DNA of 32,285 nucleotides from Thermoanaerobaculia bacterium. GTDB taxonomy: Bacteria; Acidobacteriota; Thermoanaerobaculia; UBA5066; DATFVB01. How positions within the stretch are numbered: position 1 is the first letter of the stretch; the number at the start of each line of letters is the position of its first letter. Both the position numbers and the translations under genes were made by a program. The notes beneath the pieces are model-generated. The model searched no databases. It was not told the DNA's origin and saw only the letters and a list, made by a program, of their open reading frames with translations. Shown here one piece after another: positions 5,133 through 24,302 of the stretch. The stretch lies in NCBI GenBank assembly GCA_035260525.1, contig DATFVB010000368.1, forward strand, positions 1 to 32,285, written 5' to 3'.

Positions 5133-6224
5133 TCAAGCCTTCTTCTTGGCCGGCTCCCGCTCGAGGGGAGGCTCCGGCGCCGGCGCGAGCGCCGGCGCGA
5201 GCCCGAGGTGCTCGCGGATCTTGCGCTCCAGCTCGTTGGCGAGGTCGGGGTTCTCCTTGAGGAACTGCTTGGCGTTCTCGCGCCCCTGGCCGATCCGCAT
5301 GTCGCCGTAGGAGAGCCAGGAGCCGGACTTCTCGATCAACTTGGCCTCCGTGCCGAGATCGAGCAACTCGCCGCCGCGCGAGATCCCCTCGCCGTAATTG
5401 ATGTCGAACTCCGCCTGCCGGAAGGGGGACGCCACCTTGTTCTTCACGATCTTGACCTTCGTGCGCGAGCCGACGACGGTTTCGCCGTCCTTGATCGAGG
5501 CGATCCGGCGGATGTCGATGCGCACCGAGGAGTAGAACTTCAGCGCCCGGCCGCCCGTCGTCGTCTCGGGGTTGCCGAACATCACGCCGATCTTCTCCCG
5601 GATCTGGTTGATGAAGATCAGGCAGGTGTTCGACTTCGAGACGATCGCCGTCAGCTTCCGGAGGGCCTGCGACATCAGGCGAGCCTGCAGGCCCATCTGC
5701 GCCTCGCCCATCTCCCCCTCGAGCTCGGCCTTCGGGACGAGGGCCGCGACCGAGTCGATGACGACGACGTCGATCGCACCGGAGCGGATCAGCATCTCGG
5801 CGATCTCGAGCGCCTGCTCTCCCGAGTCCGGCTGCGAGACGAGCAGGTTGTCGGTGTCGACGCCGAGCTTCTTGGCGTACTCGGCGTCCATCGCGTGCTC
5901 GGCGTCGATGAAGGCGGCGATCCCGCCCTTCTTCTGGGCCTGCGCGATGATCTGGAGCGAAAGGGTGGTCTTGCCCGACGACTCGGGGCCGAAGATCTCG
6001 ATGACGCGCCCGCGGGGCACGCCTCCGACGCCGAGGGCGGCGTCCACGGCGATCGACCCGGTCGGGATCGCGGAGATCAGGACCGGCGGGTGGTCGCCGA
6101 GACGCATGATCGCGCCCTTTCCGTACTGGCGGTCGATCTGGGTGAGCGCGGTCTCGATGGCGCGCATCTTCTCGGTGAGGACGGGACTCGGGGATGTGCC
6201 GGGGACGGGTTTGATCTGAGGCAT
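5133..6224 (-). CDS. recA: Recombinase RecA
   Basis: 363 residues, a normal RecA length. It forms the ATP-dependent filament on single-stranded DNA for homologous recombination and triggers LexA self-cleavage in the SOS response. Walker A is GPESSGKTT, Walker B is [10 protein letters not shown], and the L2 loop region with [21 protein letters not shown] is intact. The C-terminus is a Pro/Ala/Glu-rich tail ending KKKA. ATG 6224 is chosen over the upstream in-frame GTG 6242 because a GGAG lies nine bases ahead of it. The promoter at 6255-6283 gives a leader of roughly 25-30 bases. It is a single-gene unit, divergent from pgpA. Confidence 0.98.
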
Positions 6225-6246
6225 GCTCTCGTTCTCCTTCACGTGT

Positions 6247-7274: not shown

Positions 7275-7644
7275 GGTCGTCGATGCATCCGCTGTCGCCG
7301 CGGTGCTTTTCGTCGAACCGGGAGCCGACACCGTCGCCGGACGGATCGAGGGTTTCGAACTGGCTTGCCCGACGCTGCTGCCGTACGAGGTGGCGAGTGT
7401 GTGCGGGAAGAAGATTCGGAGACAACCGAATCTGCGCCGCGAGCTGCTGAGATCGCTCCTGAATCTCGCCCGGATGGGGATCACCGAGCACGCGGTGCCG
7501 CCGACGGATGCCGTGGATCTCGCGCAACGCCTGGAGCTCACGCCCCACGACGCCGCGTACGTGTGGGTCGCGCGCTTCCTCGACGCCGAGCTCGTGACCC
7601 TCGACCGGAAGCTCGATCGGGCCTGTCGGTCGGCGGGTCGCTGA
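7264..7644 (+). CDS. vapC: PIN-domain ribonuclease toxin
   Basis: 126 residues from GTG 7264, overlapping the antitoxin gene by 11 bases. The PIN metal-binding acids are visible: D7 in VVDASA, E42 in LLPYEVAS, D96 in LTPHDAAYVW and D114 in LVTLDRKL. All four are intact, so it should be an active Mg-dependent endoribonuclease; VapC toxins usually cut tRNA or rRNA. The gene is only five bases from murB, so read-through from the toxin-antitoxin promoter into cell-wall synthesis is likely. Confidence 0.92.
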   Translation: MPIKVVDASAVAAVLFVEPGADTVAGRIEGFELACPTLLPYEVASVCGKKIRRQPNLRRELLRSLLNLARMGITEHAVPPTDAVDLAQRLELTPHDAAYVWVARFLDAELVTLDRKLDRACRSAGR

Positions 7645-7649
7645 TCCCG

Positions 7650-8543
7650 ATGCTGACGCTGTCTCCCGCCGACGGGGAGGTCCGGCCCGGCGAGCCGCTC
7701 TCCGGTCACACGACGCTCCGGATCGGGGGGCCGGCCGAGTGCTTCGTCGCCGCCCGGACGGCCGAGGGGCTCGCCGCGGCGCTCCGGGCGGCGCGATCGG
7801 AAGGGAAGCCCTTCCGGATCCTGGGCAAGGGCTCGAACGTCCTCGTTTCCGACGACGGCGTCGCCGGCTGCGTCGTCGTCCTCGAGGGGGATTTCCTGGC
7901 GGTCGAAATCGAGGGCGACCGCCTCGCCGCCGGGGCCGGCGCGTCGCTGGGAGGCGTCTGCGCGAAGGCGGCGCGCGCGGGGCTGTCGGGGCTCGAGCCG
8001 ATCTCGGGGATTCCCTCCTCGATCGGCGGCGCGGTGCGCATCAACGCCGGCGCCTACGGCGGCGAGATATTCGACGTGCTCGAGAGCGTGAGCCTCGTTT
8101 CTCCCGACGGCGCCGTCGAGGAGCGGCCGGCGGCCGCGATCGCGCACGGATACCGGTGGACGGCGCTCGTCGACTCGGGCGAGATCGTCTGCCGGGCGGC
8201 GATGCGGCTCCGCCGGGCGACGCGAGAGGAGATCGAGGGCAAGACCCGCGAAGTGACCGAGAAGCGCCGCGGCGCGCTCCCGCCGCAGGCGAACGCCGGG
8301 AGCATTTTCAAGAATCCGCCGGGGCGATTCGCGGGTAAACTGCTGGAAGATTGCGGCCTGAAGGGCGTCGAGCGCGGGGACGCCGAGATCTCCCCGCGGC
8401 ACGCCAACGTCATCGTCAACAGGGGCGCGGCGCGGGCGGCCGACGTCCTGGAGCTGATGCGGCTGATGCGCCGGAGCGTCGAGGAGAAGTTCGGGGTCGA
8501 GCTCGAGCCCGAGGTCGAGCTGGTCGGGCTGCCGTGGCCGTGA
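7650..8543 (+). CDS. murB: UDP-N-acetylenolpyruvoylglucosamine reductase
   Basis: 297 residues. MurB reduces the enolpyruvyl group of UDP-GlcNAc-enolpyruvate with NADPH and FAD, making UDP-N-acetylmuramate for peptidoglycan. Visible markers are SGHTTLRIGGPAE (FAD domain entry), ILGKGSNVLVSD, the FAD pyrophosphate loop GIPSSIGGAVRINAGAYGGE, and NAGSIFKNPPG with the catalytic Ser. ISPRHANVIVN follows in the C-terminal substrate domain. The short form without an inserted loop suggests a type II MurB. ATG 7650 follows vapC by five bases. Its last four bases overlap the next start (GTGA). Confidence 0.96.
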   Translation: MLTLSPADGEVRPGEPLSGHTTLRIGGPAECFVAARTAEGLAAALRAARSEGKPFRILGKGSNVLVSDDGVAGCVVVLEGDFLAVEIEGDRLAAGAGASLGGVCAKAARAGLSGLEPISGIPSSIGGAVRINAGAYGGEIFDVLESVSLVSPDGAVEERPAAAIAHGYRWTALVDSGEIVCRAAMRLRRATREEIEGKTREVTEKRRGALPPQANAGSIFKNPPGRFAGKLLEDCGLKGVERGDAEISPRHANVIVNRGAARAADVLELMRLMRRSVEEKFGVELEPEVELVGLPWP

Positions 8544-9508
8544 CGTTTCGCGCGGTCCTCCTCGCGGGCGGCGCGGGGACGCGTCTCTGGCCGCTTTCGA
8601 CGGAAGCCGAGCCGAAGCAGTTCCTCCGCCTCTGGGGGACGACGAGCCTCCTCCAGGATGCATGGCGGCGCGTCCGGCCCGCCGCCTCGCGCGTCTGCGT
8701 GGCGACCGCGGAGCGCTATGCGGCGCGAACCCGCGAGGAGCTCCCCGACCTTCCGCCCGGCGACCTCCTCCTCGAGCCCTCCCGCCGCAACACGGCGGCC
8801 GCGATCGTCCGCGCGGCCGTCGTCCTCGGCCGCGAGAGCGACGAGCCGGTCGTCTTCCTCCCCGCGGACCAGACCGTCGCCGACCCCGAGGCGTTCGCAG
8901 GATGCCTGGCGCAGGCGGCCGCGGCGGCCGCGGCCGAGCCCGTGATCGCCCTCCTCGGGGTGCGGCCCGAACGGGCCGAGACGGAATACGGTTACGTCGA
9001 GGTGGAGGCCGGAACCGGTCCCCGTCGGGTCAGGCGCTTCGTCGAGAAGCCCTCGCGGGAAGCCGCCGAAGCCTACCTGCGCGGGGGGAATCTCCTCTGG
9101 AACGCGGGGATCTTCGCGTTCCGCCCCTCCTCGGGGATCGCGGCGTCGGCGGCCGCCGCGCCGGAATTGCTGGAGGCCTGCCGCCGTTATGTCGAGCGTC
9201 CCTCGGCCGAGGCCTGGGACCGGATCCCGGCGATTTCTTTCGATTATGCGGTGATGGAGAAGAGCAGCGACGCGATCTGTGTCCCGTGCGATGCGGGGTG
9301 GAACGACGTGGGCTCGTATCGCGCGCTCCGCGAGCTCAAGGGGATGGACGCCGCCGGCAACCTGGTGATTTCCGACCGGCCCGTCGTCGTCGAGGGCGTG
9401 CGCGACTCGATCGTCGCGGTCTCGGCCGCCGGAGCGCTCGTCTTCCCGTTCGCTCGCGAGAGCGAGCTCCGCGGACGGATCGCCGGCGCGGCGGGAGAGG
9501 GGAAATGA
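8540..9508 (+). CDS. manC: Mannose-1-phosphate guanylyltransferase
   Basis: About 322 residues, the single nucleotidyltransferase domain without the C-terminal isomerase part of bifunctional AlgA/ManC. It makes GDP-mannose from mannose-1-phosphate and GTP, for polysaccharide or glycan synthesis. Motifs are VLLAGGAGTRLWPLS and PKQFLRL (signature and pyrophosphate loop), NTAAAIVRAA, FLPADQTV, TEYGYVEVE, VEKPSREAAEAYL, GGNLLWNAGIFAF, and AGWNDVGSYRAL near the end. GTG 8540 gives a four-base overlap with murB; GTG 8534, two codons earlier, is also possible. It overlaps moxR downstream by four bases. Confidence 0.9.
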   Translation: MTFRAVLLAGGAGTRLWPLSTEAEPKQFLRLWGTTSLLQDAWRRVRPAASRVCVATAERYAARTREELPDLPPGDLLLEPSRRNTAAAIVRAAVVLGRESDEPVVFLPADQTVADPEAFAGCLAQAAAAAAAEPVIALLGVRPERAETEYGYVEVEAGTGPRRVRRFVEKPSREAAEAYLRGGNLLWNAGIFAFRPSSGIAASAAAAPELLEACRRYVERPSAEAWDRIPAISFDYAVMEKSSDAICVPCDAGWNDVGSYRALRELKGMDAAGNLVISDRPVVVEGVRDSIVAVSAAGALVFPFARESELRGRIAGAAGEGK

Positions 9509-10434
9509 GCGCCTCGCTCGACCGCCTGCGGGAGACCGTCGGCCGCGTCTTCCGGGGAAATCCCGACGCGATCGACCTCGTCCTGATCGCGATCCTGTCG
9601 CGCGGGCACGTGCTGATCGAGGACGTGCCGGGCGTCGGGAAGACGACGCTCGCCCGCGCGATCGGAAAAGCGCTGGACTTGAAGTTCACCCGGATCCAGT
9701 TCACGAGCGACACGCTTCCCGCCGACGTGCTCGGGGTCTCGATCTACAACGCCTCGGCGAACCGCTTCGTCTTCCACCCGGGGCCGATCTTCGGCAACGT
9801 CGTGCTCGCCGACGAGATCAACCGGGCGACGCCGAAGACCCAGTCGGCCCTCCTTCAGGCGATGAACGAAGGGCGCGTGTCCACCGACGAAGGGACGCTC
9901 GACCTGCCGGCCCCGTTCGTCGTGATCGCGACGCAGAACCCGGTCGAGTACCTCGGGACCTACCCCCTTCCCGAGTCGCAGCTCGACCGCTTCTTCCTGC
10001 GCCTGTCGCTGGGATATCCGCCCGCGCGCGAGGAGAAGGACCTGCTCCAGAGCGGCGGCGCGGAGCGGACCCTCGACTCGGTCGAGCCGGTGCTCGAGCC
10101 CGCGGACCTCCTCGCGCTGCAGGCACGGGTCGAAGGGGTGCGCGTGTCGGACAAGCTCCTCGACTACGTCTACGCGTTGATCGAGGCCACCCGGCGCCGG
10201 TCCGACCTGCGCCTGCCGGTCTCGACGCGCGGGGCGCAGGCGTTCTACCGGGCGATCCAGGCGCGGGCGCTCGTGGCGGGACGGGACTTCGCGCTCCCCG
10301 AAGACGCGCAGGCGGTCGCCGAGCCGGTGCTCTCGCACCGGATCCTCTCGATCTCCTCGGACGGATTCGGGACCGGTCCGCGCGAGCGCGAAGTGATCAA
10401 GACGATCCTCGGGGAAGTGCCGGTCCCGGTATGA
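9505..10434 (+). CDS. MoxR-family AAA+ ATPase
   Basis: 309 residues. It has Walker A DVPGVGKTTLA, Walker B VVLADEINRATPKTQSALLQAM and the sensor-1 motif VIATQNPVEYLGTYPLPESQLDRF, the classic MoxR signature. C-terminal helical lid about residues 210-309. MoxR proteins are chaperone-like ATPases that usually act with a DUF58/VWA partner to assemble or activate a client. Here DUF58 and a transglutaminase follow, the common moxR-DUF58-tgpA order. ATG 9505 overlaps the preceding stop (ATGA) and is preceded by GAGAGGGG. A 209-base repeat element separates it from DUF58, which is unusual for this cassette. Confidence 0.95.
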   Translation: MSASLDRLRETVGRVFRGNPDAIDLVLIAILSRGHVLIEDVPGVGKTTLARAIGKALDLKFTRIQFTSDTLPADVLGVSIYNASANRFVFHPGPIFGNVVLADEINRATPKTQSALLQAMNEGRVSTDEGTLDLPAPFVVIATQNPVEYLGTYPLPESQLDRFFLRLSLGYPPAREEKDLLQSGGAERTLDSVEPVLEPADLLALQARVEGVRVSDKLLDYVYALIEATRRRSDLRLPVSTRGAQAFYRAIQARALVAGRDFALPEDAQAVAEPVLSHRILSISSDGFGTGPREREVIKTILGEVPVPV

Positions 10435-10643: not shown

Positions 10644-11645
10644 ATGTCTGATCGCCCCATCACCCCCCTCATCCCGCGCTGGCACATCCGCATCACGAAC
10701 TTCGGGCTGGGCTACATCCTGATGACGCTGCTGGTCGCGATCGCCGCCACGAACACGGCCAACAACGGGCTCTACACGGTGCTCGCCGGGCTGCTCGCCG
10801 GCATGATCGTCTCCGGGGTCGTGTCGCGGCGGAACCTGCGGGCCGTGCGGTGCACGGTCGAGGCCAACGGCGAGATCTTCGCGGGACGCCCGGCGTGGAT
10901 CGCGGTGACGGTGAAGAACGCGTCGGGGGCTTTCACCGCGCAGGGAGTCTGGTTCCTGCACGAGGCCCTTCCCGGTCCCCTCTACGTCGCGCCGCTCCCT
11001 CCGGGCGCGGAGCGCCGTTACACCCTCGAGGCGGTGTTCCCGCGGCGCGGCGTCTTCGCGGGCGGGGACGCCGGCCTGATGAGCCGGTTCCCCGTCGGCC
11101 TCTTCCGCAAGTACCGGGGCGCTTCGTGGCCGAAGCCGATCGTGGTCTATCCCGACCCGGCCCGCGGCGCGAGGCGCCCGGAGGCTCCGGAGTCCTCCGG
11201 CGGGGCGACGTCGCCGGCGAGCCGGCGGGGATTCGGCCCGGAGGTGCGGACGCTGCGCGAATTCGTCTCGGGCGACGACGTGCGAGACCTGCACTGGAAG
11301 CAGTCGGCGCGGCTGCAGAAGTGGATCGTCCGGGAGCGGCGCGACGAGCGTTCGCGGCGCGTCGTGTTCGCGGTCGACAACGCGGTCGCGGATCCGCTCG
11401 ACCCGGCGGCGGTCGCCGCGGTGGAGCGCGCGATCGCGGCGACCGCGGGGGAGGCGCTCGCGCTCGTCGAAGCGGGAGGAGAGGCGGGTCTCGCCGCGCG
11501 CGGCGTCTCGGTCGCGCCGGCCGGCGGGGCCGGGCAGCGGCGTCGAATCCTGGAGGCGCTCGCCCGGCTCGAGATCCTTCCTTTCGCGGCGGCGCCCGCG
11601 TTTCCGCCCCCGCGGCCGGGAGAGCGCCGGGAGGTCGCCGCGTGA
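10644..11645 (+). CDS. DUF58 domain protein
   Basis: 333 residues. Two hydrophobic segments near residues 22-58 anchor it in the inner membrane. A beta-rich domain follows, then the DUF58 signature LREFVSGDDVRDLHWKQSAR at about 205-225 and a VWA-like remainder (VVFAVDNAVADPLDP). DUF58 proteins accompany MoxR ATPases and transglutaminases and are thought to be their membrane adaptor or client. The start at ATG 10644 comes right after the palindromic element and has no Shine-Dalgarno, unlike most genes of this run. The last four bases overlap the next gene (GTGA), so the two are probably translationally coupled. Confidence 0.92.
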   Translation: MSDRPITPLIPRWHIRITNFGLGYILMTLLVAIAATNTANNGLYTVLAGLLAGMIVSGVVSRRNLRAVRCTVEANGEIFAGRPAWIAVTVKNASGAFTAQGVWFLHEALPGPLYVAPLPPGAERRYTLEAVFPRRGVFAGGDAGLMSRFPVGLFRKYRGASWPKPIVVYPDPARGARRPEAPESSGGATSPASRRGFGPEVRTLREFVSGDDVRDLHWKQSARLQKWIVRERRDERSRRVVFAVDNAVADPLDPAAVAAVERAIAATAGEALALVEAGGEAGLAARGVSVAPAGGAGQRRRILEALARLEILPFAAAPAFPPPRPGERREVAA

Positions 11646-14600
11646 GCGAGCCCTGGTCGAAGCCGCTCCGGGCCGTCCATCAGCGCGCCCTGCTTCCGCT
11701 CGCCGTTCTCGCGCCCGCCGCCCTGCCGTGGACCGGCGCCGCCTCGTTCGCCGCCGTCGGCGTGTATGAGGCGCTCCTCGCGGCCGCCTGGATCCGCGCC
11801 CGGCGCGGCCGGCCGCTCTCGCTCTCCAACGCGGCGCTGAACGTCCTCGCGCTCGCCTACGTCGCCTGGTTCTTCCTCGCGGCCCGGGCGCTCCACGCCG
11901 GCCTCGTGCGGACCGCGTCGAACCTCCTCCTCTTCACGGCCGCGGCCAAGCTCGTCTCGCTCAAGAACCGGCGCGAGGAGAACCTGACGCTCCTCCTCTG
12001 CTTCTTCCTCGCGCTCGACTCGGCCTCGACCTCGACGCACGTCGTCTCGCTCGCGTTCCTCGCCGTCCTCGCCGCCGTCGGGTTCCGGACGCTCGCGCGG
12101 CTCGCCGTCCTCGCCGACTTCGACCGCGCCCCGCCGGAGAGCGCCCTCGGGAGGCTCCCGACGTGGGGGGTGGCGGCCGGATCGGTCGCGGCGACGGCGC
12201 TCGTCTCGGTCCCGCTCTTCATGGCGTTTCCGCGCCTGCAGAGCCCGTTCGCCGTCGCGCCGATCCCGAAGATGGCCGCCGACGGGTCGTTCTTCACGTC
12301 CGACCGGGTCGATCTCGAGTCGTTCTCGTCGACCAAGCACAGCGACCGGATCCTCCTCCGCGTCCAGACGCCCGACGGCGAGCTCCCCGATCCGCTCCGG
12401 CTCCGCGAGGCGACGTTCAACCGGTATCGGAGGGGGCACTGGGTGCGGGAAGGGATGGTCTCCTCGCGGCTGCGGGAGAGCGGCGACGGGAGGGTCGAGC
12501 TGCCGCCGCAGTACGCCACGGCCGTCCCGTCGAAGACCCCGCGGCCCAGGCGGACGCTCTCGATCGAGACGTCGTCGTTCACGCCGGGGTTCCTGTTCGT
12601 TCCCTACGGCACGACGGCGATCGCGTCGGCCGGCACGGCCCTCGCGATCTCGTCCGACGCGACGATCACGTACTCGGGGGCGCCGAGCGACCGCCGGTAC
12701 GCCGCCGAATACGTCCTGCAGGCGGACGGAGCCGGGCCGGGAAGGACGTCGGTTCCGCTCCACGACGTGCCGCCGGAGGTCGCGGTGCTGACGCGCCGGA
12801 TCGTGGCCGGCGCCTCGACGCCGGAAGAGATCGCCTCGCGCCTCCTCGCCTATCTCGGACGCGGGTTCACGTACCGCGTCGACGTTCCCGAAGCGGTCGG
12901 CGATCCGGTCGTCGACTTCCTGACGCGCACCCGCGCCGGGCACTGCGAGTACTTCGCGAGCGCGCTCGCGCTCATGATGCGCTCGGCCGGGATCCCCGCG
13001 CGCCTGGCGACCGGCTCGCTCGGCGGCGAGGTGGGTCCGCTGACGAGCGAGATCCTCGTGCGCGGCGAGAACCTGCACGCGTGGGTGGAGGCGAGCCTCG
13101 ACGGGGAGCGCTTCCGCGTCTTCGACCCGACTCCGCCCGAGGGGCGTCCGAGGATCGTCACGGTGTCGCTCTGGAGGCGGCTCGCCGAGCTCGGCAACGA
13201 GGTCGAGTACTTCTACGACCGGAACGTCCTGGGGTTCAGCACGCTCGAGCAGGTGCAGCTGGTCGAAGCGGCCCGCGAGGCCGCGCTGCGGATGGAGAAC
13301 GCCGCCGCGAGAGCCGGCGCCCTGGCGCGCGTTCACCGCAGCCGGGCGGCCGCCGCTGCGGCGCTTGCGCTCGCGGCCGCGGCGTTCCTGCGGCTCGCCC
13401 GACGGCGCCGGCGGGTGCCGCCGGCCACGCGCGCCTATCTGCGCATCCGCCGGCTCCACGCTCGCCGCTTCGGGCCTCTCCCCGAGTCGGCCCCCTCCGG
13501 CGCGGTCATCCGCGGCTTCGCGCGGGCCGGCCGGGGCGCGGGAGTGGCCGCCCGGAAAATCGTCGAAACCTACCGGGCCGAGGCATTCGGGGACGCGCCG
13601 CCCGACGTCGAGACCGTGCGCGAGATCCGGCGGCTCGTGCGCGCGCTCAAGAAAGCCTCGGCCGCGGCCGCCGCCGTCCTGATCCTGCTCGCGGCCTCGC
13701 CCGGCGCCGCGCGCGCCGCCGATCCGGCGGTTTCGCAGGACGCGCGGCGGCAGGACCTCGCGGGACTCCAGGCGCGCGTCGAGGAGTCGCGGCGGCGCCT
13801 CGCGGAGGCGGAGAAGAAGACCGCTTCCCTCCGGCAGGAGGTCGAGGCGCTCGACCTGCGCCTCGAGCTGGCGCAGCGGCAACGGGAGCTCATCGCCGCG
13901 CGGCGAGACGACCTCGCGCGGCGCTCGAGCTCGCTCGGGGCCGATCTCGAGTCCGCGCGCGCCGCGCGCGCCCGGTCGGCCGATTCGCTGCGCGCGCGCG
14001 TCCTCCTCCTGTCGCGCCTGGGCCGGTTCGGCTATCTGAGGCTGCTCCTCGCCGCGCGGGGGACGACGGAGGTGTTCGCCGCGATGCGCACGCTCGACGC
14101 GATGGCGCAGACCGACGCGCGCGAGCTCGCGCGGTTCACCGACGCGGGGCGGCGGCTCGAGACCGACCTCCGGTCGCAGAACGACCTGCGGAAGGAGACC
14201 GAACAGCTCCTCGCGCAGGACCGGGAGGAGGAGAGGCGGATCGCGGCCGGGAAGAGCGAGCGGATGCGGCTGCTGGCGCAGTCCAGGAGCGAGACCGTCG
14301 CGACGCGGCGGGAGGTCTCCGAGCTCTCGGAGAAGGCGCAGAAGCTCGAGGCGCTCCTCGACCTCCTGGCGAAAGGAGAGTCGACGACGATCGGCTCTCC
14401 GCGGCCGTGGCGCGGCGTGCTCGACTGGCCCGTCCGCGGGACGATCGCCGTCACGTTCGGACGGCATCGCCACCCGAAATTCGACGCATGGACCGTCTCG
14501 AACGGCGTCGAGATCGCGGCGCCCGACGGAACGCCCGTCGCGGCCGTCTACGGAGGGCGGGTCGTGTTCGCCCGCTGGTTCGCCGACTACGGCAACATGG

Positions 14601-14797
14601 CGGTGATCGACCACGGCGACGAGGTGCTCACCCTCTACGCGCGCCTGCGGTCGATCCTGGTCCGCGTCGGCGACGTCGTCTCGACGGGGGACAAGGTGGG
14701 TCTCGTCGGCATCGGTCCCGGGGAGACGGAACCGTCCCTCTACTTCGAGGTCCGCGACCACCAGAAGGCCTCCGACCCGATGACGTGGCTCCGGTAG
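11642..14797 (+). CDS. Fusion: TgpA-type membrane transglutaminase + EnvC-type amidase activator
   Basis: One open frame of 1051 residues. Residues about 10-200 hold several membrane helices (DUF3488 type). A periplasmic transglutaminase-like domain carries an intact triad: C435 in GHCEYFASA, H479 in NLHAWVEA, D495 in VFDPTPPE. A further helix (about 567-585) leads to a basic, presumably cytoplasmic tail. A signal-like helix (about 670-695, KKASAAAAAVLILLAAS) is followed by a long coiled coil (about 700-915). The end is a LytM/M23 domain (about 920-1051) finishing PSLYFEVRDHQ, close to EnvC. The M23 metal ligands are replaced (SNGVEI, YARL, SLYFE), as in EnvC itself, so it should activate amidases rather than cut. 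An internal in-frame GTG at 13637 could start a separate EnvC with its own signal peptide. No stop separates the parts. It overlaps DUF58 by four bases. Confidence 0.85.
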   Translation: MSEPWSKPLRAVHQRALLPLAVLAPAALPWTGAASFAAVGVYEALLAAAWIRARRGRPLSLSNAALNVLALAYVAWFFLAARALHAGLVRTASNLLLFTAAAKLVSLKNRREENLTLLLCFFLALDSASTSTHVVSLAFLAVLAAVGFRTLARLAVLADFDRAPPESALGRLPTWGVAAGSVAATALVSVPLFMAFPRLQSPFAVAPIPKMAADGSFFTSDRVDLESFSSTKHSDRILLRVQTPDGELPDPLRLREATFNRYRRGHWVREGMVSSRLRESGDGRVELPPQYATAVPSKTPRPRRTLSIETSSFTPGFLFVPYGTTAIASAGTALAISSDATITYSGAPSDRRYAAEYVLQADGAGPGRTSVPLHDVPPEVAVLTRRIVAGASTPEEIASRLLAYLGRGFTYRVDVPEAVGDPVVDFLTRTRAGHCEYFASALALMMRSAGIPARLATGSLGGEVGPLTSEILVRGENLHAWVEASLDGERFRVFDPTPPEGRPRIVTVSLWRRLAELGNEVEYFYDRNVLGFSTLEQVQLVEAAREAALRMENAAARAGALARVHRSRAAAAAALALAAAAFLRLARRRRRVPPATRAYLRIRRLHARRFGPLPESAPSGAVIRGFARAGRGAGVAARKIVETYRAEAFGDAPPDVETVREIRRLVRALKKASAAAAAVLILLAASPGAARAADPAVSQDARRQDLAGLQARVEESRRRLAEAEKKTASLRQEVEALDLRLELAQRQRELIAARRDDLARRSSSLGADLESARAARARSADSLRARVLLLSRLGRFGYLRLLLAARGTTEVFAAMRTLDAMAQTDARELARFTDAGRRLETDLRSQNDLRKETEQLLAQDREEERRIAAGKSERMRLLAQSRSETVATRREVSELSEKAQKLEALLDLLAKGESTTIGSPRPWRGVLDWPVRGTIAVTFGRHRHPKFDAWTVSNGVEIAAPDGTPVAAVYGGRVVFARWFADYGNMAVIDHGDEVLTLYARLRSILVRVGDVVSTGDKVGLVGIGPGETEPSLYFEVRDHQKASDPMTWLR

Positions 14798-14894: not shown

Positions 14895-16061
14895 ATGAAG
14901 TCGAACCGCTCCCGGCTCGCGTTCGTGCTCGCGTCGCTGGCCGGCCTGGTGCTGCTGACGGCGTTGAAGGGGCCGGTCCTCGCTCCTCCCGGGCGCGACC
15001 CGGTCTTGAAGCCCCTGGCGATCTTCACCGAGGTCCTGAATCTCACCCGCAGCAACTACGTCGAGCCGGTCGACGTCTCGACGCTGCTCGCCGGCGCGTA
15101 TGACGGCGTCACCGACGCGATCGATCCCTACTCCTACTACGTTCCCGGCGACCGGATGGCGAAGTATCGGGCGTTCGAGGCCTCCCGGCCGCTCGATTCG
15201 GGGCTCGTGCTCGGCCGCCGCGGCGGGTTCGCGTACGTCGTGGCGCCCGTCCCGGGCTCGCCGGCCGACGCCGCGGGAATCAAGTCGGGCGACGTGGTCC
15301 TCGCGATCGACGGCGCCTCGACCCGCAACCAGGCCCTGTGGGAGATCGAGTCGGCGATCGCCGGTCCGGAGGGTTCGGCGGTCCCGCTCAAGGTCCTGCG
15401 CGGCGGCGACGAGAAAGAGGTCACCGTCCGGCTCACGCGGCAGCGCTACACCCCGGCCACGGTGTCGCAGAGGGCCCAGGACGGCGTTTCGGTGATCCGG
15501 ATCCCGTATTTCGCGCCCGGAACGTCGGCCGCGGTCGAGAAAGCGCTCCGCGCCCAGACCGCCGGCGGCCCCCCGGTGATCGTCGACGTTCGGGATTCCG
15601 CCGGCGGCGACGTCGACGAGGCGGTCCGCACCGCGTCGCTCTTCGTGCCGCCGGGCGAGGTCGTGAAGCTCTCGGGGAAGAAGATCCCGGGCCGGGACTA
15701 CGCGACCGTCGGGTCCCGCGTCTGGAACGGAAAGACGATCGTGCTGATCGACGGCGGCACCGGGGGCGCGCCCGAGGTGTTCGCGGGCGCCCTCCACGAT
15801 CGAGCGGCTGCCGAGCTCGTCGGAGAGCCGACGGCGGGGATGGGCATCGTCCAGCGGCTGCTCCCGATGAGCTCCGGCGGCGCGCTCTACCTGACCGTCG
15901 GCGAGTACGTCTCGCCCTCCGGCACGGAGCTGACGGGTAAGGCGCTCAAGCCCACCGCGCGCGTCGATCTCTTCCCGGGCGACTCCGGCGCTTCCGACGA
16001 CGCGATCCTGAAAAAGGCGCTCGAGATCGCCCACGGCGCTCCCGCGAAAGCGGCGGCGTAG
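14895..16061 (+). CDS. CtpA/S41-family protein lacking catalytic Ser and Lys (pseudo-protease)
   Basis: 388 residues. Signal anchor at residues 8-30 (LAFVLASLAGLVLLTALKG), an N-terminal helical part ending DPYSYYVPG, a PDZ domain at about 95-180 (APVPGSPADAAGIKSGDVVLAIDG), then the S41 core. In active C-terminal processing proteases the nucleophile lies in SASASE and the Lys 25 residues later in GKG. Here the aligned stretch is TGGAPE, with Gly at 291, and GEPTAGMG with Met at 316, so both catalytic residues are gone while the surrounding fold is kept. It probably acts as a PDZ scaffold or regulator. It sits between the EnvC-type fusion and yibQ, the place of an active ctpA in many bacteria. 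Confidence 0.88.
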   Translation: MKSNRSRLAFVLASLAGLVLLTALKGPVLAPPGRDPVLKPLAIFTEVLNLTRSNYVEPVDVSTLLAGAYDGVTDAIDPYSYYVPGDRMAKYRAFEASRPLDSGLVLGRRGGFAYVVAPVPGSPADAAGIKSGDVVLAIDGASTRNQALWEIESAIAGPEGSAVPLKVLRGGDEKEVTVRLTRQRYTPATVSQRAQDGVSVIRIPYFAPGTSAAVEKALRAQTAGGPPVIVDVRDSAGGDVDEAVRTASLFVPPGEVVKLSGKKIPGRDYATVGSRVWNGKTIVLIDGGTGGAPEVFAGALHDRAAAELVGEPTAGMGIVQRLLPMSSGGALYLTVGEYVSPSGTELTGKALKPTARVDLFPGDSGASDDAILKKALEIAHGAPAKAAA

Positions 16062-16130: not shown

Positions 16131-16994
16131 TTGCTCCTCGCGCTCCTGCTCTTCGCCGCCGGATTCGGCGCGGCGGTCCTGTGGATGCGTCCCCGCGCGG
16201 CTTTGGAGGCGCCGGCCGTCCGCGCCGGCAGGGCGGCGGCCGCCGTCGCGCCGCCCCGAGCCGCACAACGGCGCTCCGCCCATCCGGCTCCGCGCGAGGA
16301 GGGGATCGTCCTGGCGGCGGACCCCTCCCCGGCGCCGCGTCTGGCGATCGTCGTCGACGACCTCGGCAACGACGACGCGGCGCTCGCCCGAGTCGCGGCT
16401 CTCCCGGCGGCGATCACCGGAGCCGTGCTCCCGGGTCTGCCGCGGAGCCGCGAATCGGCGCAGACGCTGCGATCGGCGGGGAAGGAAGTGCTCCTGCATC
16501 TTCCGATGGAACCGCTCGACCGTTCCGCGCGGCCCGGCCCCGGCCTCGTGAAGGTCGGTATGACGGCCGGCGACATCACTCAGGTCCTGACGGCCGACCT
16601 CGCCGACGTCCCGGGAGCCGACGGGGTGAACAACCACATGGGCTCCCGCGCGTCGGCCGACCGTCCGACGATGGACGCCGTCCTCTCGGTCCTGAAGAAG
16701 CGCGGCCTCTACTTCCTCGACAGCCGGACCACGGCGTTCACCGTCGCGGCCGAGGAGGCCGGGCGGCTGGGCGTTCCCTGCCGGTCGCGCTCGGTCTTCC
16801 TCGACGACGTGGCCGAGGAGTCCGCGATCCGGCGCCAGCTCGACCGCGCCGTCGAAGACGCGCGCGCCGAGGGCGCCGCGATCGCGATCGGCCACCCGCA
16901 TCCCGCCACGCTCGCCGTCCTCGAGCGCGCGCTCCCGGAGCTTCGCGGCAAGGGGATTCGGCTCGTGCGCGTCTCGGACCTGTTTTCCCGATAG
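16131..16994 (+). CDS. yibQ: YibQ-like divergent polysaccharide deacetylase
   Basis: 287 residues from TTG 16131, supported by GGGGAGG ten bases upstream and by an N-terminal membrane/signal segment (LLALLLFAAGFGAAVLW). The catalytic-like domain starts LAIVVDDLGND at about residue 72, then EVLLHLPMEP, GVNNHMGSRAS, LYFLDSRTT, VFLDD and AIGHPHPATLAVLERALPEL. These match the YibQ (DUF610) family, related to polysaccharide deacetylases. The enzymatic activity is not established, and the gene is repeatedly found beside envC and ctpA. It is probably periplasmic and active on peptidoglycan or in division. It follows the S41 gene by 69 bases and is the last gene of the cluster. Confidence 0.9.
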   Translation: MLLALLLFAAGFGAAVLWMRPRAALEAPAVRAGRAAAAVAPPRAAQRRSAHPAPREEGIVLAADPSPAPRLAIVVDDLGNDDAALARVAALPAAITGAVLPGLPRSRESAQTLRSAGKEVLLHLPMEPLDRSARPGPGLVKVGMTAGDITQVLTADLADVPGADGVNNHMGSRASADRPTMDAVLSVLKKRGLYFLDSRTTAFTVAAEEAGRLGVPCRSRSVFLDDVAEESAIRRQLDRAVEDARAEGAAIAIGHPHPATLAVLERALPELRGKGIRLVRVSDLFSR

Positions 16995-23867: not shown

Positions 23868-24302
23868 ATGGCGACGTTCCGCTGGAATTCCATGCAGGAG
23901 CTGATGGCGATCCAGGAGAAGATGAACCGCCTCTTCGAGGAGGTGCTCTATCGCCGGGAGTTTCCGGAGGGATCCGACGAGCGGGCCGCCTCGCGCTGGG
24001 CGCCGGCGGCCGACGCCTTCGAGTCGGCGCGCGAGTACGTCTTTCGGGTGGAGATCCCCGGCGTCTCCCTCTCCGACGTGAAGCTCGAGGTGGAGGACGG
24101 GAAGCTCCGCCTCTGCGGAACCCGTCCGGAAGTCGATCCCGCGAGCCGGTTCCTCCGGATGGAGCGCGTGTACGGCGATTTCGACCGCGAGTTCGAGATT
24201 CCCCACGACATCGACGCCGAGCGGATCTCCGCTTCGCTGTCGAGCGGCATCCTGACGATTCGCGCCCCCAAGAAGGGGACGCCCGCGGCGGAGGAACCGT
24301 GA
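23868..24302 (+). CDS. Small heat shock protein (Hsp20/alpha-crystallin family)
   Basis: 144 residues. The short N-terminal arm (MQELMAIQEKMNRLFEEVL) is typical of bacterial Hsp20. The alpha-crystallin domain runs from about residue 42 to 137: APAADAFESAREYVFRVEIPGVSLSDVKLEVEDGKL, split here by family strands, and ends with the conserved SSGILTIRAPKK (normally NGVLTI-type). It holds unfolding proteins in a refoldable state without ATP and hands them to DnaK. It lies just after the dnaK terminator, with a weak CGAGG ribosome site, and overlaps hspR by four bases (GTGA). Confidence 0.95.
   Translation: MATFRWNSMQELMAIQEKMNRLFEEVLYRREFPEGSDERAASRWAPAADAFESAREYVFRVEIPGVSLSDVKLEVEDGKLRLCGTRPEVDPASRFLRMERVYGDFDREFEIPHDIDAERISASLSSGILTIRAPKKGTPAAEEP

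Follow-up and report, generated by a model that had tools for sequence, protein, structure and literature searches.

A TgpA-type transglutaminase and an EnvC homologue joined in one reading frame in a genus of Thermoanaerobaculia

The transglutaminase TgpA of Pseudomonas aeruginosa (PA2873; PDB 6g49, 6g4h) carries a TgpA_N and a Transglut_core domain with a Cys/His/Asp triad, and its chain passes through membrane helices, a periplasmic domain and one more helix to a cytoplasmic tail, at which the protein stops; its gene belongs to a co-transcribed cluster. EnvC, an activator of peptidoglycan amidases with solved structures from Escherichia coli and Vibrio cholerae (PDB 6tpi, 4bh5, 8tzk), consists of a coiled-coil hairpin and a degenerate LytM domain with a recognizable C-terminus, and its gene has a deacetylase gene as a neighbor. 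A precedent for two proteins in one frame is FbcH, the cytochrome b/c1 precursor of Bradyrhizobium japonicum, which is reportedly a single polyprotein whose internal signal peptide is cut after export, as experiments are said to have shown.

The locus described here lies in a window of 32,285 nucleotides, the whole stretch of DNA that was analyzed, which is the entire contig C368 of a Thermoanaerobaculia genome (G000) assembled in 368 contigs. In it, a single open reading frame on the forward strand (11642..14797, +; 1051 residues, stop codon at 14795-14797) does not end at the tail of a TgpA-type transglutaminase, as the Pseudomonas gene does, but continues into a signal peptide and EnvC. A preliminary description, made from the sequence without database searches, had stated that no protein of this layout was known; a literature search has likewise found no description of a TgpA-EnvC fusion, in which known domains stand in a new order.

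Two envelope modules in one frame

The frame opens with a GTG codon that overlaps the stop of the preceding DUF58 gene as GTGA and is preceded, 6 nt on its 5' side, by the Shine-Dalgarno sequence GGAGGT (11630..11635, +). Its translation has no stop between the transglutaminase and EnvC modules, and Pfam places TgpA_N (residues 20-359, 92.4 bits), Transglut_core (383-496, 78.3 bits) and Peptidase_M23 (953-1046) along it in this order from N- to C-terminus, all above cut-off, which bears out the uninterrupted frame of the preliminary description. In DNA of this composition, an open frame by itself is weak evidence, since the ORF has a GC content of 74% (84% in the joint region) and unrelated frames run for about 1000 codons without a stop; the longest stop-free stretches in the window's six frames measure 990-1381 codons. 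The case for the fusion is instead made by homology on both sides of the joint together with a matching frame in a second species (G001), and on these grounds the earlier proposals that the fusion is natural and that its parts are a transglutaminase and EnvC have proved correct.

By every sequence test made, the first module (residues 1-672; 11642..13657, +) is TgpA. It is full length up to the point where the genes of relatives stop: the transglutaminases of a neighboring family, f3, end in RIRKLA, RLRKMS or RLRKI immediately before their stop codons, and these ends align with VRALKKAS at the joint. The transglutaminase core (residues 383-496; 12788..13129, +) is recognized by Pfam and matches TgpA 6g4h/6g49 in fold. 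The codons of the catalytic triad, which had been read as intact, are found at 12944 (Cys435), 13076 (His479) and 13124 (Asp495), all on the forward strand, and the three residues are invariant in an alignment of eight members. Hydropathy indicates five hydrophobic helices in the N-terminal part and a transmembrane helix after the periplasmic domain (residues 568-586; 13343..13399, +), which is followed by RRRRR; the topology envisaged earlier, in which a cytoplasmic tail is succeeded by a second, signal-like helix leading into the periplasm, fits this profile.

The genes upstream of the fusion form the usual TgpA cluster, with murB (7365..8543, +), which is syntenic with the TgpA loci of family f3, followed by a MoxR-type AAA ATPase (8662..10434, +) and a DUF58 protein (10644..11645, +) whose gene overlaps the TgpA start, so that the order MoxR-DUF58-TgpA is present at the locus. 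Within the frame of the ATPase, an N-terminal extension of about 280 residues (window 8662-9500) has no Pfam match, is partly conserved in f3 and may be a separate gene, for example one for a divisome protein adjoining murB. The recA gene (5133-6242, -) lies a few kb from the cluster, in an order that is conserved in f3. Starts that overlap the preceding gene as GTGA, like that of the DUF58/TgpA pair at 11642, recur in the window at 24299 (a MerR-type regulator) and 24661 (a sigma factor), and NTGA coupling seems to be common in this genome.

The second module is best described as an EnvC homologue. In an AlphaFold model, the region encoded by 13724..14371 (+) forms the antiparallel coiled-coil hairpin of EnvC (helix I 695-803, tip 804-807, helix II 808-910), with pLDDT values of about 80-93 over most of its length, and a Foldseek search with the model returned 8tzl_E and PcsB 4cgk among weak matches. 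The model, which was computed without an alignment, is sound over the coiled coil and the transglutaminase core, but it has no meaning in the LytM domain, where pLDDT falls below 40; the identity of this domain is thus taken from its sequence, and no claim on it is made from the model. Active M23 peptidases carry the motif HxGxD / YxHL / HLHF. In the LytM domain of the fusion (14399..14794, +), the five ligand and catalytic positions are occupied by Ser953, Glu957, Arg1001, Ser1032 and Tyr1034, and the domain is therefore judged to be dead, as it is in EnvC. The C-terminus of the fusion, SLYFEVRDHQKASDPMTWLR, resembles the EnvC ending SLYFEIRRQGQAVNPQPWL, in agreement with the degenerate, EnvC-like LytM domain noted in the preliminary description.

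Database comparisons add to this assignment. The EnvC part matches V. cholerae EnvC (8tzk) over its whole length (E=6e-35), and the C-terminal domain also matches solved Pseudomonas-type FtsEX partners and E. coli EnvC. The best NCBIfam model is likewise EnvC, at 92.4 bits (99.7 for the EnvC part alone) against an equivalog cut-off of 270. Because of this distance (92 versus 270 bits), the module is called an EnvC homologue, on the strength of its layout, lost ligands, operon and partners, and is not counted as a member of the equivalog. Unlike the E. coli and V. cholerae proteins, then, the fused EnvC scores below that cut-off, sits behind a transglutaminase and has no conserved start codon of its own.

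The genetic surroundings of the EnvC module are familiar. The next gene, here and in relatives, encodes an S41 (CtpA-type) PDZ protease (14895..16061, +), beyond which lies the gene for a divergent polysaccharide deacetylase (PF04748, SddA/YibQ-like; 16131..16994, +); the gene for the deacetylase SddA/YibQ is a classical neighbor and partner of envC (PMC12440217). The free EnvC proteins of two neighboring Thermoanaerobaculia families, f2 and f3, are 36-48% identical to the fused one and have the same S41 protease next, but they are encoded by separate genes that overlap the stop of a phosphodiesterase gene as NTGA. The window genome also encodes FtsX (by a match to FtsX_ECD) and Amidase_3 genes. 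Its one other match to the fusion protein is limited to the M23 domain, so that the fusion ORF is the only source of EnvC seen in this genome.

A matching frame in a second species

G001, the only other genome of the family that was examined, has about 80% DNA identity to the window. In it, the outermost gene of contig C87 is the transglutaminase and that of contig C189 is EnvC; on both flanks, gene order is shared with the window, and DNA identity is about 78-82%. Contig C87 reads in frame past the natural end of the transglutaminase into LRKTAAAAAVLLAL, the core of the EnvC signal peptide, and C189 picks up EnvC at AAAPAPDAPPDARRQDLAGLQ. Both contigs break within the GC-rich signal helix, leaving a gap of about 18 bp as judged from the window.

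This linkage bears directly on whether the fusion might be an error, that is, two genes that appear as one through an indel that hides a stop or through a chimeric contig. The assembly is of the metagenome type and comes in 368 contigs, and a joint of 84% GC is a place where such errors might be suspected. Against this stand an independent contig, C87, in which the TgpA end and the EnvC signal core share a frame; differences between the window and G001 across the joint that number 4, 2 and 8 at codon positions 1, 2 and 3 over 17 codons, as in coding DNA; and the reciprocal junction of the proposed inversion (see below), which is present in G001. A sequence or assembly error is accordingly regarded as highly improbable. 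Specifically, an assembly artefact is unlikely, and a chimera was rejected because the second species has both the same linkage and the reciprocal junction.

Outside this genus, searches returned the two modules separately. A match at 1e-25 is present in 126 of the 149 genomes of the class, and among the matches listed for these 149 genomes only the window has one match that covers both modules. A phylum sample of 297 genomes contained no other fusion. None of 80 named TgpA loci from the TgpA alignment (mostly Acidobacteriota, including Thermoanaerobaculia), 68 of which have at least 2 kb of downstream sequence, has EnvC nearby. Single-sequence scans of genome and viral contigs yielded no further fusion, a viral scan with the EnvC alignment gave no matches, and among plasmids no record spans both halves of the fusion. 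The domain order proposed at the outset is thus common to both species of the genus that were examined, whereas in every other family examined tgpA and envC are two separate and unlinked genes; as the family is represented by two genomes only, the fusion is known from one genus. Long frames that precede EnvC in several f2 and f3 genomes (e.g., G006, G011, G015) were also considered; they are out-of-frame readings of GC-rich DNA and not fusions, because the true upstream gene is the phosphodiesterase.

Junctions of a proposed inversion and the start codon of EnvC

The comparison with family f3, in three genera, gives an indication of how the two genes may have met. The left and right parts of the window are colinear with two f3 loci on different contigs, and the switch from one to the other falls exactly at the joint. 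In f3, the gene after the transglutaminase is that of a bacterial sugar transferase in convergent orientation (two genomes inspected), and in f2 and f3 EnvC is preceded by a type I phosphodiesterase, with a stop/start overlap that reads ATGA, GTGA or CTGA. Contig C326 of G001 carries the phosphodiesterase and sugar transferase genes side by side and convergent, and the phosphodiesterase retains its own end and stop. In the window genome, both genes lie at contig ends, where the phosphodiesterase is truncated by the end of the contig.

The simplest history consistent with these junctions is an inversion. It would have taken place in the ancestor of the genus, with one breakpoint between the 3' ends of tgpA and the sugar transferase gene and the other between the 3' end of the phosphodiesterase gene and the 5' end of envC, and it would have yielded both new junctions. 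The envC start codon of relatives overlaps the stop of the phosphodiesterase gene, and such an event would have left envC without its start; as the G001 phosphodiesterase has kept its own end and stop, the EnvC start presumably went with it or was lost. With that start gone, EnvC would have needed to be captured in frame: the tgpA stop would have been lost, and the last tgpA codons would have been joined in frame to envC with the core and the cleavage site of its signal peptide.

A different way of supplying EnvC was raised in the preliminary description, namely that an internal in-frame GTG (13637..13639, +) might release free EnvC, so that the gene would give rise to dual products, the fusion and a separate EnvC translated from this or a nearby codon. 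The codon is present, and a start there would yield a complete signal peptide, VRALKKASAAAAAVLILLAASPGAARA; moreover, a CTG is present in G001 three codons downstream, and CTG seems to be the start of the EnvC genes of f2. However, the GTG is a GTC in G001, it aligns with the TgpA tail of f3 and not with EnvC, and it has no Shine-Dalgarno sequence, with a duplex energy of -5.0 that is ordinary among 34 in-frame start codons and contrasts with -11.0 at the TgpA start. There is also no upstream stop that would allow termination-reinitiation. GTG 13637 is therefore probably just a valine codon and an unlikely source of free EnvC, and dual products as a whole are very doubtful; the small chance that is left concerns the G001 CTG, given the apparent CTG starts in f2.

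As for these f2 genes themselves, the EnvC loci L037, L038, L039, L041 and L044 have no usable ATG, GTG or TTG before the signal peptide, and the phosphodiesterase stop reads CTGA, which suggests a CTG start kept across several genera. Locus L043 has GTGA, locus L040 has CTGA plus an ATG slightly downstream, and at L036 a short repeat, VTGARRVTGAERVTGAQRETGAGR, is present in the EnvC N-terminus, where several GTG codons could serve as starts.

Cleaved polyprotein or tethered pair

The fate of the fusion protein depends on how the joint is read. In the junction (residues 663-692; 13628..13717, +), the basic TgpA tail RRLVRALKK runs into the EnvC core ASAAAAAVLILLAA, an SPG breaker and an ARA cleavage motif. 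The layout is KK-ASAAAAAVLILLAA-SPG-AARA/ADP, where the slash marks the putative cut, with an n-region charge of +4 and a core of 14 residues, which is short for a membrane anchor and typical of a signal peptide. Between the window and G001, the linker after the putative cut is variable (6 of 13 residues), against 2 changes in 46 residues of the conserved coiled coil.

The hydropathy of the same helix (residues 665-683), 1.65 over 19 residues, is in the range of a membrane segment, and the helix could be a seventh transmembrane anchor. The result would be a stable bifunctional protein with EnvC permanently tethered, as the preliminary description proposed, in which the place or timing of the transglutaminase is coupled to amidase activation; that one frame is found in two species, and that fused genes often encode partners, would agree with such a protein. 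The hydrophobic core, however, extends over only about 14 residues before SPG and ARA/AD follow, the inversion breakpoint would explain the fusion in place of selection for coupling, and the lack of linkage between tgpA and envC in every other family examined also speaks against a functional pair.

A further objection to a tether comes from the way in which EnvC works. In E. coli, FtsX binds EnvC close to the hairpin tip, at residues 114-128 and 141-160, and activation requires that the heptads at the EnvC N-terminus pair with the restraining arm (PMC7668044, PMC12505981). An alignment with E. coli EnvC, weak and free of gaps, maps the FtsX sites to about 780-793 and 808-826 of the fusion. In the model, the N-terminus of EnvC is 109 helical residues from the tip, or some 16 nm at 0.15 nm per residue, and the linker between the membrane helix and this N-terminus measures about 12 residues. 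A tethered EnvC could thus hardly dock on FtsX in the established manner, which has the tip bound to FtsX and, at a great distance from the membrane, the N-terminus paired with the restraining arm. By analogy, the fused EnvC could cooperate with FtsEX in the E. coli manner only if its N-terminus were unattached and well away from the membrane. Given the hallmarks of a cleavable signal and the short linker, the permanently tethered pair finds no support and is considered unlikely.

Cleavage by signal peptidase I would resolve the conflict over the linker, and a processed polyprotein is therefore taken as the most likely reading. In such a scheme, the fusion gene would be translated as one polyprotein of 1051 residues, in which the basic cytoplasmic tail of TgpA would supply the n-region for an internal signal peptide and Sec would move EnvC into the periplasm. 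Signal peptidase I would most likely cut after Ala692 (ARA/AD), which would give TgpA an additional membrane helix at its C-terminus and would release EnvC to work with FtsEX and the amidases as usual. As in FbcH, one frame would serve two membrane or periplasmic proteins, with the fused EnvC lacking its own start and keeping its signal peptide; unlike FbcH, whose products are respiratory subunits of one complex, TgpA and EnvC are not known partners, and their separation is here deduced from the joint. Two points count against cleavage: signal peptides that follow several transmembrane helices are not invariably cut, and the mature start visible in G001, AAAPAPD, has a proline near the expected cut site. 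The cleavage motif can be seen only in part in that species because about 18 bp of the joint are missing. Overall, a polyprotein that was made by an inversion and is cut by signal peptidase into two proteins appears reasonably probable, judging by the sequence features of the joint for the cleavage and by homology for the functions of the products.

Taken as a whole, the locus appears to be a clean natural case in which an inversion cut a cell-division gene from its start and in-frame capture behind an unrelated membrane protein rescued it, with both inversion junctions still visible. Were the fusion to stay uncut, which seems quite unlikely, it would constitute a transglutaminase with its own tethered amidase activator that bypasses or modifies the control of cell separation by FtsEX, and TgpA would be tied to the control of peptidoglycan amidases. 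If the polyprotein is processed, two envelope proteins would be made through one translation event by way of an internal signal peptide, and their ratio would be fixed at 1:1.
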